The notes under the pieces were generated by a model. That model was not told the DNA's origin. It made no database searches and saw only the letters and a program-made list of their open reading frames with translations. Positions 2,702 to 8,187 of a DNA stretch of 64,000 bases are shown here, one piece after another. The stretch lies in assembly GCF_964031115.1 (NCBI RefSeq), contig NZ_OZ035006.1, positions 1,116,001 through 1,180,000 on the forward strand, in the 5' to 3' direction. The first letter of the stretch is position 1, and every line of letters begins with the position of its first letter. The translations under genes were made by a program, and so were the position numbers. Origin of the DNA: Spiroplasma endosymbiont of Clivina fossor. GTDB lineage: Bacteria; Bacillota_I; Bacilli_A; Mycoplasmatales; Nriv7.

Positions 2702-4927
2702 ATGAAATCGATAACATTTAAACAAGTTTTAGATAAAGTTAAAACCTATATTAGTAATGAAAAAGATATTGAGGAAATAAAACGCGCATATGCCTATGCT
2801 TATAATAAACATGATCAGCAGTTAAGAAAAAGTGGTGAACCTTATATTAATCATCCTTTATGAACAACTTATTATTTGGCAACATGGCATATGAATTTAG
2901 CAACATTAATTTCTGGTTTATTACATGATGTGTTAGAAGACACACCAACAACTTTTGAAGACTTGAATAAAGAGTTTGGTATTGAGATATCAACTTTAGT
3001 TGAAGCGGTCACGAAAGTATCTTATTTTGCTAAAATGAATCGTAGTGAAATTAAATCTAATTATTTGAGAAAATTATATTTAAGTATGGCGCATGATATT
3101 CGTGTTATTGTTATTAAGTTAGCAGATCGTTTGCATAATATCCAAACAATTGAATATTTGGAACCAGAAAAACAAAAAGTTATTGCGAAAGAAACTTTAG
3201 AAGTTTATTCTTCAATTGCGCACCGGTTAGGGATGCGACAAGTAAAAAGTCTTTTAGAAGACTTGTCTTTCGCAATTTTAAATCCTGTTGAATATAAAAG
3301 AATTTCTCGCAATGTTGATTTGGAAAAAGAACATTTAGAATCATTAATGGCCGTAATGATTAACAATATTAAGTCATTATTAGATAGTAAAAATATTAAA
3401 GCAACAATTTCTGGTCGTAGTAAAAGTATTTATTCAATTTATCGTAAGATGTATTATTTTGGGCGTAAATTTGAAGATATTCATGATTTATTAGCGATAA
3501 GAATTATTACTAATACGATTGATGAATGTTATACGATTTTAGGTTATTTACATCAGCAATTTCCGCCTTTACCGGGAAGATTTAAGGACTATATTGCAAC
3601 ACCTAAATATAATTTATATCAGTCATTACATACAACAGTAATTCAAGATGCAACAATTTATGAGATTCAAATTCGAACTGTTGATATGGATGAAAAGGCA
3701 ACTTATGGAGCAGCATCGCATTGGAAATACAAAGAGGGCGAAATCTATAATACTAAAAAACGCCAAGCTGATATTGATGAGCGCTTAGATATTTTTAATC
3801 GGATTTTAGATTTAGAAAATATTAACAATGAAGAGTTAGAAAGTAATGAAAAACCAAATATGGAGTTAGCCGTTAAGAGTGATATTTTTACTTCTTTAAT
3901 TTATGTTTTAACTCCTAATGGTAAAGTTATTACTTTGCCTTTTGGGTCAACAATTTTAGATTTTGCATATAAAGTTCATACTGATATTGGTGAGAAAACT
4001 ACGGGTGGTAAGATTAATGGTAACTATGTTTCTGTTAGTACTGTTTTAAAATCTGGTGATGTTGTGGAAATTAAAACTAGTAAAAATATGCGACCATCCC
4101 GTGACTGACTAGTTATTGCTAAAACTAGTTATGCATTGCATAAAATTAAAAGATTTTTAAAAAAACAAGAACAAGAATTTGATGAAACTCATAAAGATAA
4201 TGAATCTAAAAATCTTAAAAAAATTAAAAATGTTAAAAAAGCAATTGATGATGTTTTAACGCAACGGAAATTAAAATGAAAGTTAGTTTCCCAAAAAGAA
4301 CTAATGCATCGCTTAAAGCAATTAAAATATCATACTTTAGAAGATTTTTATTTAGATGTTGCCAATAAGAAATATCAACTTGATGATGCGATTAATCTTT
4401 TATTAGCAAGTAATGAAACTAGTCCTAATACTTATTTAAATCATCTTCAAGAAAAAAAAGTTGAAAAAATTAACTTAAAAGATGACATTATTGTTAAAGG
4501 TGCTGATAATATTAAAGCAACTTTAGCTCATTGTTGTATGCCAGTGCCGTTAGAATCAATTACGGGATATGTTAGTAAACTTGGTGGGATTCGTGTGCAT
4601 CGCGTTAATTGCCATAATATTCTTCCAGAAGAACGCCAAGGACGACTTTTGGAAGTGTGATGGAATGAAAATGTCGTTAAGCGGCATCAATATTATAGTA
4701 ATATTAAAGTAATTTGTTATGACCGTGATGGTTTAATGGCTAATATTACCAATATTCTTGCTAATTTAAATGCTTCGATTCAACAAATTCATATTGAAAC
4801 AAGTTCAGATAATAAATACAGTATTAATCTTGTTATTAAAATTGCCAACAAAGTTCTTCTTCAACAATTGCTGTCATCATTACGACAAATACCCCACGTG
4901 TACGATGTGGTTGTAATGGAAAACTAG
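2702..4927 (+). CDS. rel: Bifunctional (p)ppGpp synthetase/hydrolase Rel
   Basis: Makes and breaks the stringent-response alarmone (p)ppGpp. The 741-residue frame needs TGA as Trp (for example at 2861, 4106 and 4658). Domains in order: the HD hydrolase domain with H51 and the HD pair at residues 75-76; the synthetase domain with the RFKDYIA..K.N.YQSLHTTV block and the EIQIRT motif; the TGS domain beginning IYVLTPNGKV; the Cys-containing region HCCMPVPLE; and a C-terminal ACT domain ending at the TAG. Key residues of both catalytic domains are present, so both activities look intact. The ATG is 19 bases after the apt stop with only a weak ribosome binding site, which suggests co-transcription. 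A terminator follows directly. Confidence 0.94.
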
Positions 4928-4937
4928 ATATACAGTA

Positions 4938-4984
4938 AAATAAGTCTCTAACAAAGGAATTTAGCTAGAGACTTATTTTTTTAT
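4938..4984 (+). terminator. Rho-independent terminator after rel
   Basis: Perfect 13-bp inverted repeat, AAATAAGTCTCTA (4938-4950) with its complement at 4966-4978, a 15-base loop and a T run. It closes the secDF-apt-rel unit. An ISA copy is inserted one base after the T run. Confidence 0.9.
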
Positions 4985-4985
4985 T

Positions 4986-6053
4986 AGACTTCTTGCAAAA
5001 TTAATATGATAATTATAATTTTTAAATTTAAAATAAATATAAAAGTGTTATTAAAATAATTTTTAGATTATTTTTACAAATATTTTGTCATTAAAACATA
5101 ATAAAAATTATTATTTACAATAAAAAAAGACTGAAATTTTAAATTATCAAATATATTTAAACTAATAGTTGTAAATTATAAATTGAAGCTATTAAATTAA
5201 ATCTTAAAGCAAATCTTTTTCTACGATTTCGATATTTTTCACTAATAATTTTAAATTTTTTAAGTATAGCAAAAACATTTTCAATAACAATTCTCATTTT
5301 TGAAATTCGCTCATTATTTTGCTTTTCTTCTTTATTTAAAGGGTTTTTCTTTGATTTTCTTTTAGGAATTAAAACATTATGATTAATTTTTTGTATGCCT
5401 TGATAACCTAAATCCACTAAAACAGTTGTTTCTGGTAAAAATTTAATTTTTGAATCTTTTAAAATTTTAAAGTCATGGTTTTTACCATAAGAAAAATCAG
5501 AACTAATAATTTTTTTACTATCTTTTTCAATTATAACTTGTGTTTTTATTGTGTGTTTTTTCTTTTTTCCTGAGTAGTGCTGTTTTTGTCTTTTTTTGGG
5601 CGTTGGATTTGGCTTTCAGTTACATCAATTATAACAGTCTTATCTTTGAAATAATCTTTTAATAGTGATTTTTGACCAGTAAGTTGTTGAAAATTAGGGT
5701 GTTTTATTAAAGTGTCTTCAATTCATTTGATATTTCTATAACAACTACTTTCACTAATATCATAACTTTTTGCAATATGAAAATAAGTTCTATATTCTCT
5801 TCAATATTCTAAAGTCATTAAAATACGATTTTCTAATGATAATTTATTGGTTCTTCCGCGACGAAATCTCTTTTTTAATTCTTCTATTTTTAAAATTTCT
5901 AGCATTTTATTAAAAGTAGTATGTTTAATACCAGTTAATCTTAAAAAATTTTTATCACTTATTTGATTATTTTTTTTAAATTTCATTTAAATTCCACCTT
6001 TTTATTAAAAACAACAATTCAATTATATTTTAAATTAATTTTGCAAGAAGTCT
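4986..6053 (-). mobile_element. ISA copy 1 (IS5 family, ISL2-like), complete
   Basis: 1068 bp bounded by 20-bp perfect inverted ends AGACTTCTTGCAAAATTAAT and flanked by the 3-bp duplication ATT (4983-4985 and 6054-6056). ANT duplications of 3 bp are typical of the ISL2 group of IS5. This is the reference description for the ISA copies in this window. All complete copies have the same length and differ by only a few bases. Confidence 0.93.
5157..5986 (-). CDS. ISA transposase OrfAB, made by -1 frameshift
   Basis: DDE transposase of the IS5 family. OrfA begins at 5986 after a GGTGG ribosome binding site and, with TGA as Trp, runs about 146 codons to TAA. A run of seven A (CCC AAA AAA AGA in the -1 frame) lets the ribosome slip back one base into OrfB. 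The joined protein is about 276 residues and then shows the family block HYSGKKKKHT. Catalytic candidates are the Asp in IIDVTE, the Asp in VDLGYQG and the Glu in RIVIENVFA. No copy joins the two frames without slippage, and the A7 run is identical in the copies that keep it, so I read this as programmed frameshifting and not decay. Confidence 0.85.
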
Positions 6054-6072: not shown

Positions 6073-6165
6073 TTAGCAACTATGTTTCCTAGTACTATCT
6101 TTCTTACAGTCCTTGCAATTATGTCCCTCAGAACAAGAACATTTGCAGTCCGTACACTTGTTCAT
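6073..6165 (-). CDS. Cysteine-rich, metallothionein-like small protein
   Basis: A 30-residue protein with seven cysteines and two histidines: MNKCTDCKCSCSEGHNC, then KDCKK and a final HSC. The CxxCxCxC...CxxC spacing is what metal-thiolate proteins show, so binding of Cu, Zn or Cd in the cytoplasm is a reasonable guess. The start is supported by a very strong ribosome binding site, AAAGGAGG, seven bases before the ATG. It has no signal peptide. ISA copy 1 is inserted about 17 bases after its stop. I cannot assign it to a named family with certainty. Confidence 0.6.
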   Translation of the reverse strand: MNKCTDCKCSCSEGHNCKDCKKDSTRKHSC

Positions 6166-6362
6166 TTTATTGCCTCCTTTCTCCTGATGTAGAATAGATA
6201 GATGAAAAATAACTTATATCAATGATAAAATTATTGCTCGCTTTTTGTGGTTATATTTTTCAGTCTCAGATATTTATGCTTTAATTTTATTTTTTCAAAT
6301 TCAGGGGTGCTTCATATATCAGTTTTTTTTCATAAATAAATTTTTTCTAAATTAATTAAATT
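6166..6362. other. Leader of the Cys-rich gene and a possible gene tail
   Basis: The 60 bases next to 6165 hold the ribosome binding site and presumably the promoter of the Cys-rich gene (minus strand). Further right, the minus strand has a short open frame of about 40 codons ending at about 6237 (ending ITTKSEQ). It has no start and could be the tail of a gene lost by rearrangement. I do not recognise it. Confidence 0.25.
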
Positions 6363-6442: not shown

Positions 6443-6561
6443 GGTCGCGTTTAGTTTTATTAGGTATTTTTTAAAAAAGAAAAAATAATCATTTACTATA
6501 AATTATTTCAATATTCAAATTAAGTATATATTTCTTATGTATGATTGTTGTTGTAAAAAAT
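6443..6561. repeat. Dispersed GGTCGCG end repeat (ISLre2-type end, variant)
   Basis: Begins GGTCGCGTTTAGTTTTATTA. The same 120 bases occur in opposite orientation at about 29670-29797. Related ends close the ISLre2-family element at 40808, so this is probably the end of a relative whose body is gone. No gene seen. Confidence 0.55.
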
Positions 6562-6683
6562 TTTTAATTTTGTCGAAAACTCTTGATAAAATAAAAAAAA
6601 TCATCAACTTGATAATTTTAAAAGACTTTTATGTAAAATTACTATTTTTTTTATTTTATCAAGAGTTTTCGACAAAATTAAAA
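6562..6683. mobile_element. ISB fold-back remnant (two 3' ends)
   Basis: 122 bp bounded by both ISB terminal repeats (TTTTAATTTTGTCGAAAACT). Each side matches the 3' end of ISB and neither matches the 5' end. The flanking 8-mers differ, so it is a recombination product and not a simple insertion. Confidence 0.7.
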
Positions 6684-6859: not shown

Positions 6860-8187
6860 GGGACTGTACAATTAACTGTGTCTTTAAGTAATTAACTTAA
6901 ATTCACTCTGTCCTCAAATTTTATCATTAAATGTGAAATTGCACTACCCCAATTTTGAATTGGCATCGTTCATTTCTTAACCATATTTTGAAATGCTAAA
7001 TAAAATATTTTAAAAACTGATGCGTCATTAGGAAAAATCTTTTTATTCTTAATGACTTTTCTTAGTTGACTATTAACAGATTCAATCGCATTAGTTGTGT
7101 AAATAATCCTTCTAAATTCTTGAGGATATTCAAGAAAAATTATTAAATTATTTCAGTTATTTTTTCATGATTTAGTAATTTGTGGATACTTTTTATTTCA
7201 TTTTTCAGAAAAATGATCTAAAGCAACTAGCGCTATTTCTTCATTAATTGCTGTATAAATTGATTTTAAATCATTAGCTACAAGTTTGCGTTCTTTGTAA
7301 GGGACAAATTTTAAACTATTACGAATTTGATGAACAATGCATAATTGGTGCTGTGTTTTTGGGAACACAGCTTCTATTGCATCAGACATTCCAGTTAAAT
7401 TATCGCTACAAGCAACAAGAATATCTTGTAAGCCACGATTTTTCATTTCCGTAAGGATTATTAAGTCAAAATTTGGCGCCCTCATTCTCGCTAATTCACA
7501 TTCCTAAAATATCTTTTAAACCATCTAAATTAATTCCTAAGGCAAGATAAACTGCTTTATTTATTATTCGTTTATCTTGCTTTACTTTAACAACAATACA
7601 ATCAAAATAAACAATCGGATAAATCTTCTCTAAAGGTTTAGTTTGTCACATTTTAACTTCTTCAATAACATCATCAGTTATTTGACTAATTAAACTTTCT
7701 GAAATTTCTGCTCCGTGATAGAATTCTTGCAATTGTGCTTTGATATCAGAAATTGTCATTCCTCTTGCATATAAAGAAATTACTTTTTGATCAAAGTTAT
7801 CAAATCTTCTTTGTCTTTTCGGAATAATTACTGGTTCAAAAGTACTATTTCGATCTCTTGGTACATCAATTGCGATTGAACCATTTTTAGTAATAATGGT
7901 TTTTTGTGTGTTGCCATTTCTTTTATTATGATTCTCATCAGTTTCAAGATAATCTTTAATTTCCGTATTTAACATTCGTTCAGTTAATTTTTTGGTAAAT
8001 TCCTGAAAAATAGTATTGCCTTTAAATAAATCTTGTGGATTATCAATATTTTCTAAAAAATAATCAACAACTTTATCAATTGCGTCAGGTTCTTTTTTTA
8101 TTTTTTTTTTTTTTGTCATTTTCTGTTCTCCTTCTTTTAAGTATAATTCAGAATGAATTATCAAGACACAGAATTTTGGACAGGCCC
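6860..8187 (-). mobile_element. ISD copy 1 (IS256 family)
   Basis: 1328 bp with imperfect inverted ends (GGGACTGTACAA at the 3' side of the gene, GGGCCTGTCCAA at the 5' side). The 8-bp target duplication is TATATAAT at 6852-6859 and 8188-8195. This is the best defined full-length copy and the reference for ISD. Confidence 0.92.
6892..8119 (-). pseudogene. ISD transposase (IS256/mutator type), frameshifted
   Basis: About 408 residues in the unbroken family form. The DDE Asp lies in YFDCIV and in VACSDNLTGM, followed by the QLCIVHQIRNSLK block, and the catalytic Glu lies in TTNAIESVN. All are classic for IS256. In this copy the A run right after ATG has 14 A and is in frame, but an extra base near 7452 (TAAGGATT where the other copies have TAAGATT) shifts the frame and cuts the protein. 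A GGAGA ribosome binding site precedes the ATG at 8119. Confidence 0.88.

Follow-up and report, generated by a model that had tools for sequence, protein, structure and literature searches.

Short copper metallothioneins of fungi (Neurospora type) have about 25-30 residues and seven Cys. The bacterial metallothioneins SmtA and BmtA (PF02069), known from cyanobacteria and Pseudomonas, contain nine Cys and one His in their solved clusters (PMC7387436, in excerpt). MymT, a mycobacterial protein of 4.9 kDa reported to be needed for copper resistance, began as a small Cys-rich open reading frame (ORF) missed by annotation and was later proved to be a copper metallothionein (PMC7558416, in excerpt). 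No metallothionein of a mollicute itself was found in the open-access literature, judged by titles and abstract starts; on the same basis, the papers containing both words concerned host or unrelated genes. Here we compare with these systems a 30-codon gene of a Spiroplasma endosymbiont of Clivina fossor. The gene was analysed in a window, by which we mean the whole stretch of 64,000 nucleotides studied (contig NZ_OZ035006.1, positions 1,116,001 to 1,180,000).

The 30-codon gene and its product

The initial annotation had described an ORF with seven Cys in 30 residues, arranged in CxxCxCxC and CxxC groups, two His and a strong ribosome-binding site, leaving the strand unstated. The ORF was present as described, on the minus strand, and its ribosome-binding site was equally clear (Table 1). 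Cys residues occupy positions 4, 7, 9, 11, 17, 20 and 30 of the peptide and His residues positions 15 and 28; the translation contains no aromatic residue, and neither a signal peptide nor a hydrophobic stretch was seen by eye. The minus strand directly 5' of the gene reads ...AGGAGAAAGGAGGCAATAAA-ATG. A search of the whole genome carrying the window (G000) revealed a single copy of the gene. In the other genomes of the genus (G001, G002, G003 and G004), the Shine-Dalgarno sequence was the same in G003, AAAGGAGA in G004 and AAAGGGGG in G001.

Table 1. Positions in the window of the peptide gene and of the features next to it.
Feature	Position	Strand	Details
relA/spoT	2702..4927	plus	741 aa; PF04607, PF13328, PF02824, PF13291
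Hairpin after relA/spoT	4940..4984		ataagtctctaac...agagacttatttt; by eye
Insertion sequence	4986..6053	minus	1.07 kb; ends agacttcttgcaaaattaat / attaattttgcaagaagtct, by eye
30-codon peptide gene	6073..6165	minus	ATG 6165-6163, TAA 6075-6073; product MNKCTDCKCSCSEGHNCKDCKKDSTRKHSC
Conserved upstream stretch	6166..6280	minus	identity in 107/115 columns with G003 and 107/116 with G004
Shine-Dalgarno sequence	6173..6180	minus	AAAGGAGG; spacer of 7 nt to the ATG of the peptide gene

Distribution and conserved scaffold

The absence of conservation in relatives, named in the initial annotation as grounds for dropping the gene, did not hold: relatives were found in all five genomes of the genus and in 11 of the 20 genomes of a second genus (the Spiroplasma apis/cantharicola/helicoides group). 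Four of the own-genus copies are intact, while in G002 the 5' end is replaced, the first codons being swapped for other DNA, and the homologous frame starts at the CSDGHNC part. The second-genus copies are diverged, 33-36 aa long and placed at another locus; ten harbour the full motif and one (G078) is shortened and lacks the first Cys block. The peptide is present in S. cantharicola CC-1 (G090) and S. helicoides TABS-2 (G120) and absent from S. apis B31 (G123). Since nine of the 20 second-genus genomes do without it, the gene is dispensable. The own-genus member G001 (NZ_CP065193.1) belongs to the Spiroplasma endosymbiont of Nebria riversi, listed as 'Unplaced' among Spiroplasma clades (PMC10232968, in excerpt).

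The Cys/His scaffold is invariant. The motif C-x2-C-x-C-x-C-x4-N-C-x2-C was conserved in all 14 full-length members, a count that excludes the cut G002 and shortened G078 copies, and each of them has a His near the C-terminus, 2-4 positions from the end. These members have 30-36 aa, 7-8 Cys (seven in the own genus, eight in the second), 0-1 aromatics and 0-1 internal Met.

A single-sequence search of the order gave matches in 12 of 298 genomes at E values up to 10. Five were in the second genus, all to a common 33-residue ORF; the remaining matches outside the own genus were rejected on reading as chance frames. With a profile built from both groups, 16 of 320 order genomes (5 + 11) showed convincing matches (E ≤2.1e-5), and the other 304 gave ten weak matches (E 0.03-0.93) or none; outside the two genera, the remaining 295 genomes of the order had no convincing match. 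In samples of the class (395 genomes) and the phylum (392), sets that share genomes with one another and with the order set, members appeared only in the same two genera, and tblastn against plasmid and phage records gave no match to the peptide. A degenerate DNA pattern, scanned over genome contigs with partial coverage (second-genus copies fitting the pattern were missed), hit 35 stretches. The sole true member was that of the Nebria riversi endosymbiont; the other 34, read in frame, were chance frames or low-complexity Cys stretches.

As the combined profile is partly circular, a second profile was made from second-genus members only (eight distinct sequences; neither the shortened G078 nor the duplicates G022 and G090 were used). 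Among 1,633 window frames, this profile put the window ORF at the top with E 0.0079, the runner-up having E 3.9. Composition-matched shuffles scored as high as the window ORF in 27 of 20,000 cases, and 81 of 400,000 shuffles had the same six-Cys spacing. Common ancestry of the two groups is likely from these scores, the link being significant but modest. By these comparisons, the peptide is a member of a small family found only in two Spiroplasma lineages, both of them insect-associated.

A gene rather than a chance reading frame

In a second-order Markov model of chance (150 simulated windows, 137,317 ORFs of 20-60 aa), none of the simulated windows contained an ORF with at least seven Cys at a density of 7/30 or more, and none contained an ORF with the Cys spacing of the peptide. 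Density alone is nevertheless no proof of a gene and was rejected as such, because two more ORFs of the window are almost as dense: one of 22 aa with five Cys (start 34920, minus strand) and one of 31 aa with seven Cys (start 3721, minus strand), which is antisense to relA/spoT. Their presence, together with the open antisense frames of most members, is what speaks for a chance ORF or for the antisense as the coding strand.

The codon pattern argues for the peptide frame. For the four intact copies of the genus taken together, pS was 0.213 and pN 0.032, and 22 of the 31 pairwise differences fell in third codon positions. Such close relatives give little evidence of constraint, because the genus genomes are so alike (relA/spoT 95-98% identical) and because relA/spoT has a pN (0.005-0.022) no higher than that of the peptide (0.01-0.05); conservation within the genus is consequently a weak proof of selection. 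The argument for selection rests on the second genus, where pN/pS was 0.23 in the peptide frame. Of the antisense frames, the one in the same register gave 2.07 and the next-best one 0.49. These ratios were calculated from eight of the 11 copies, leaving out G152, whose match started a codon too late, G120, which differs in length, and the shortened G078. With this pattern, a ribosome-binding site on the peptide strand and a family that spans two genera, a chance or antisense origin is hardly credible. The codon evidence indicates that 6073-6165 is a gene and not a chance ORF, and the real, conserved tiny gene proposed in the initial annotation stands, with a purifying codon pattern.

Neighbourhood of the gene in the two genera

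relA/spoT lies beyond the peptide stop in convergent orientation in all five genus genomes, with the same two genes after it in every case, and the own-genus neighbours of the peptide gene are relA/spoT and apt-like genes. In the window, the insertion sequence has landed between the hairpin of relA/spoT and the peptide gene and parts the two. Its transposase is broken into two frames (5986-5546 and 5417-5157) with matches to PF13613 and PF13359; no transposase ORF was found between the peptide gene and relA/spoT in the other four genomes. A like hairpin was seen by eye directly between the convergent genes in G001 and G003 (partly in G004); in G001 and G003 it could serve both genes. The terminator scan of G003 did not call this hairpin.

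The conserved upstream stretch likely holds the promoter or leader of the gene. Its identity to G003 and G004 does not prove constraint, because relA/spoT is itself 97-98% identical in these genome pairs. No sigma-70-like promoter scored above the shuffle level in this stretch, which had no Rfam match, and terminator scans gave nothing above that level; an upstream ORF remnant in G003 had no Pfam match over the cut-off. Further upstream, a palindromic element of ~128 bp (window 6555-6682) had 88 matches in G000, 84 in G001, 28 in G002, 20 in G004 and none in G003. Only 40 candidates were scored in four of the five genomes; owing to the palindromy, the numbers include matches on both strands. 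In G001, the end of a palindromic copy replaces the conserved upstream stretch to ~30 nt from the peptide ATG (by eye). A transposase-like gene, labelled by eye, occupies 6892-8164 on the minus strand as two frames that overlap (6892-7485 and 7406-8164), a further sign of the load of insertion sequences around the peptide gene.

In the second genus, the gene is preceded on the same strand by a probable MTA/SAH nucleosidase in ten of the 11 copies, at distances, measured between ORF ends, of ~150 nt in nine and ~690 nt in G078. In the remaining copy (S. helicoides, G120) it follows trmFO. A hairpin with a T-rich tail close behind the peptide stop was seen by eye in ten of the 11 copies. No metal-resistance gene, transporter or regulator is conserved beside the peptide gene in either genus, and ORF clusters and sequence starts from 16 genomes revealed no shared regulator of the smtB type (cyanobacterial) next to it.

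Two alternative roles bear on these neighbours. Short Cys-rich ORFs can serve as leaders, and the peptide might accordingly be a Cys-sensing leader controlling the gene behind it. We consider this very improbable: the next gene past the stop is convergent in the own genus (with the insertion sequence between them in the window), and in the second genus the hairpin and T-rich tail seen in ten of the 11 copies come soon after the stop, and the gene behind varies. The nucleosidase association would instead suit a thiol-redox or sulfur-handling peptide, such as a cysteine store, sulfane carrier or oxidant scavenger, perhaps tied to this sulfur-adenosine gene. The one nucleosidase of ten that was tested scored over the Pfam cut-off but below the NCBIfam one, the neighbour is absent in the own genus and in S. 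helicoides, and the Cys spacing and the conserved His speak for metal sites; a sulfur-handling role is improbable on this account, if somewhat less so than the leader.

Comparison with protein families

No family or other domain was found for the peptide in Pfam, NCBIfam or the PDB at E values up to 10, and six members searched had no Pfam families. The profile of the bacterial metallothioneins (PF02069, Metallothio_Pro) exceeded its cut-off in none of 25 genomes and gave nothing at the peptide gene; its three weak matches (E 0.1-0.3) were all elsewhere in the genomes. In the control set of 14 genomes, this profile matched four, one of them over the cut-off. The nine Cys plus His that hold the three-/four-metal Zn/Cd cluster of PF02069 proteins are not reached, as the peptide family has seven or eight Cys. 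By contrast, the composition expected of metallothioneins in the broad sense (small size, high-Cys CxC/CxxC arrays, few or no aromatics) is present. The description of the peptide as metallothionein-like was kept, as it explains the sequence most economically, whereas membership of a known family, with no PF02069, Pfam or NCBIfam match, was dropped. The peptide is metallothionein-like in composition and, as far as these profiles tell, outside the known bacterial family.

Proposed function

We regard it as fairly probable that this real gene stands alone and encodes a cytosolic metal-thiolate peptide of 30 residues, metallothionein-like, that buffers or stores a soft metal. Composition, Cys/His conservation and the absence of another domain make metal holding the most likely reading. 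The metal binding, the metal's identity, the cytosolic location and the buffering or detoxifying role are predictions. In a peptide without a hydrophobic core, the Cys residues, seven in the own genus and eight in the second, would wrap round soft metal ions together with the C-terminal His. With zinc this would give about two tetrahedral Zn(II) sites, with copper a small Cu(I)-thiolate cluster; Zn(II) is slightly favoured over Cu(I), because all full members keep a His. The bound metal would thereby be buffered or stored, as by a very short metallothionein. An AlphaFold single-sequence model was weakly defined (mean pLDDT 64, pTM 0.20). Such a model may be expected of an apo metallothionein and of many short peptides too, and it neither supports nor refutes the proposal.

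A zinc-knuckle microprotein, in which the Cys would make up a structural Zn site or two and which would function by docking onto another protein or an RNA instead of holding metal as such, would account for part of these features. The two CxxC pairs and the conserved C-terminal His could make Zn(Cys3His) or Zn(Cys4) sites, the sequence from C4 to C20 is well kept, and the weak model puts two short strands after the second CxxC. However, one structural site would need neither the crowded CxCxC nor as many as 7-8 Cys in 30-36 residues, there are hardly any aromatics for a core or an interface, and no zinc-finger family matched in Pfam or NCBIfam. We consider a zinc knuckle unlikely, and metal holding by a metallothionein-like peptide is the reading followed below.

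Metal-export ATPase and Fur

A heavy-metal P-type ATPase exceeded the TIGR01525 cut-off in nine of the 25 genomes. In the own genus, this was the case in G001, where the gene is intact, and in G003, where it has one in-frame stop near its end; G000 and G004 retain broken pieces and G002 has none. The ATPase gene is broken by insertion sequences at L096 (G000:C1:1814500-1824500) and L097 (G004:C1:510500-524000). The genes flanking the own-genus ATPase are presumably engB-like and valS-like. In the second genus, the ATPase was present in two of the 11 genomes with the peptide vs. five of the nine without it (Fisher p 0.16, kinship ignored). A Cys-containing ORF of 124-131 aa (L092 5253-5648 in G120, L095 2549-2923 in G078) and a 72-aa ORF, HMA-like by eye, precede the ATPase in these two genomes. 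Fur was uninformative, because all 25 genomes have it; the Fur-family gene of G000 (G000:C1:136037-136198) matches only positions 2-54 of the 121 of the profile, in its first half, and the matches in the other 24 genomes are longer.

In G000, insertion sequences disrupt the ATPase gene while the 30-codon gene is intact. It is conceivable, if rather doubtful, that Spiroplasma possesses a minimal metallothionein of its own, which arose independently, lies at the low end of bacterial sizes and remains as a cytosolic metal sink where the export ATPase is lost. Such a trade-off between exporter and sink is put forward as a hypothesis only, as presence of the peptide does not track the ATPase and both genes are intact in G001.

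Comparison with known metallothioneins

If the product is a metal-thiolate peptide, it would reveal how soft metals are held in an insect symbiont with few genes and no cell wall, and it would rank among the smallest metallothionein-like proteins of bacteria available for study; relatives occur in the described and isolated species S. cantharicola and S. helicoides. The gene also illustrates how easily genes this short get missed. We propose, as a plausible but unproven interpretation of the sequence, that the peptide is a new lineage-restricted metallothionein-like variant.

The fungal copper metallothioneins of the Neurospora type are like the peptide in length and in Cys number, but they have another Cys spacing and no His, and they belong to another kingdom. 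SmtA and BmtA share with it a very small size, Cys richness with His and a presumed metal-thiolate cluster; the Cys spacing of SmtA differs, and members of the Spiroplasma family, at 30-36 aa, have 7-8 Cys against the nine of the solved clusters. Pseudomonas metallothionein genes likewise lack a metal regulator beside them (PMC7387436, in excerpt). The nearest parallel in history, by analogy, is MymT, likewise a small Cys-rich ORF overlooked at first; the Spiroplasma peptide differs in being unrelated in sequence, so far as Pfam and NCBIfam show, and in having a metal that is only predicted.
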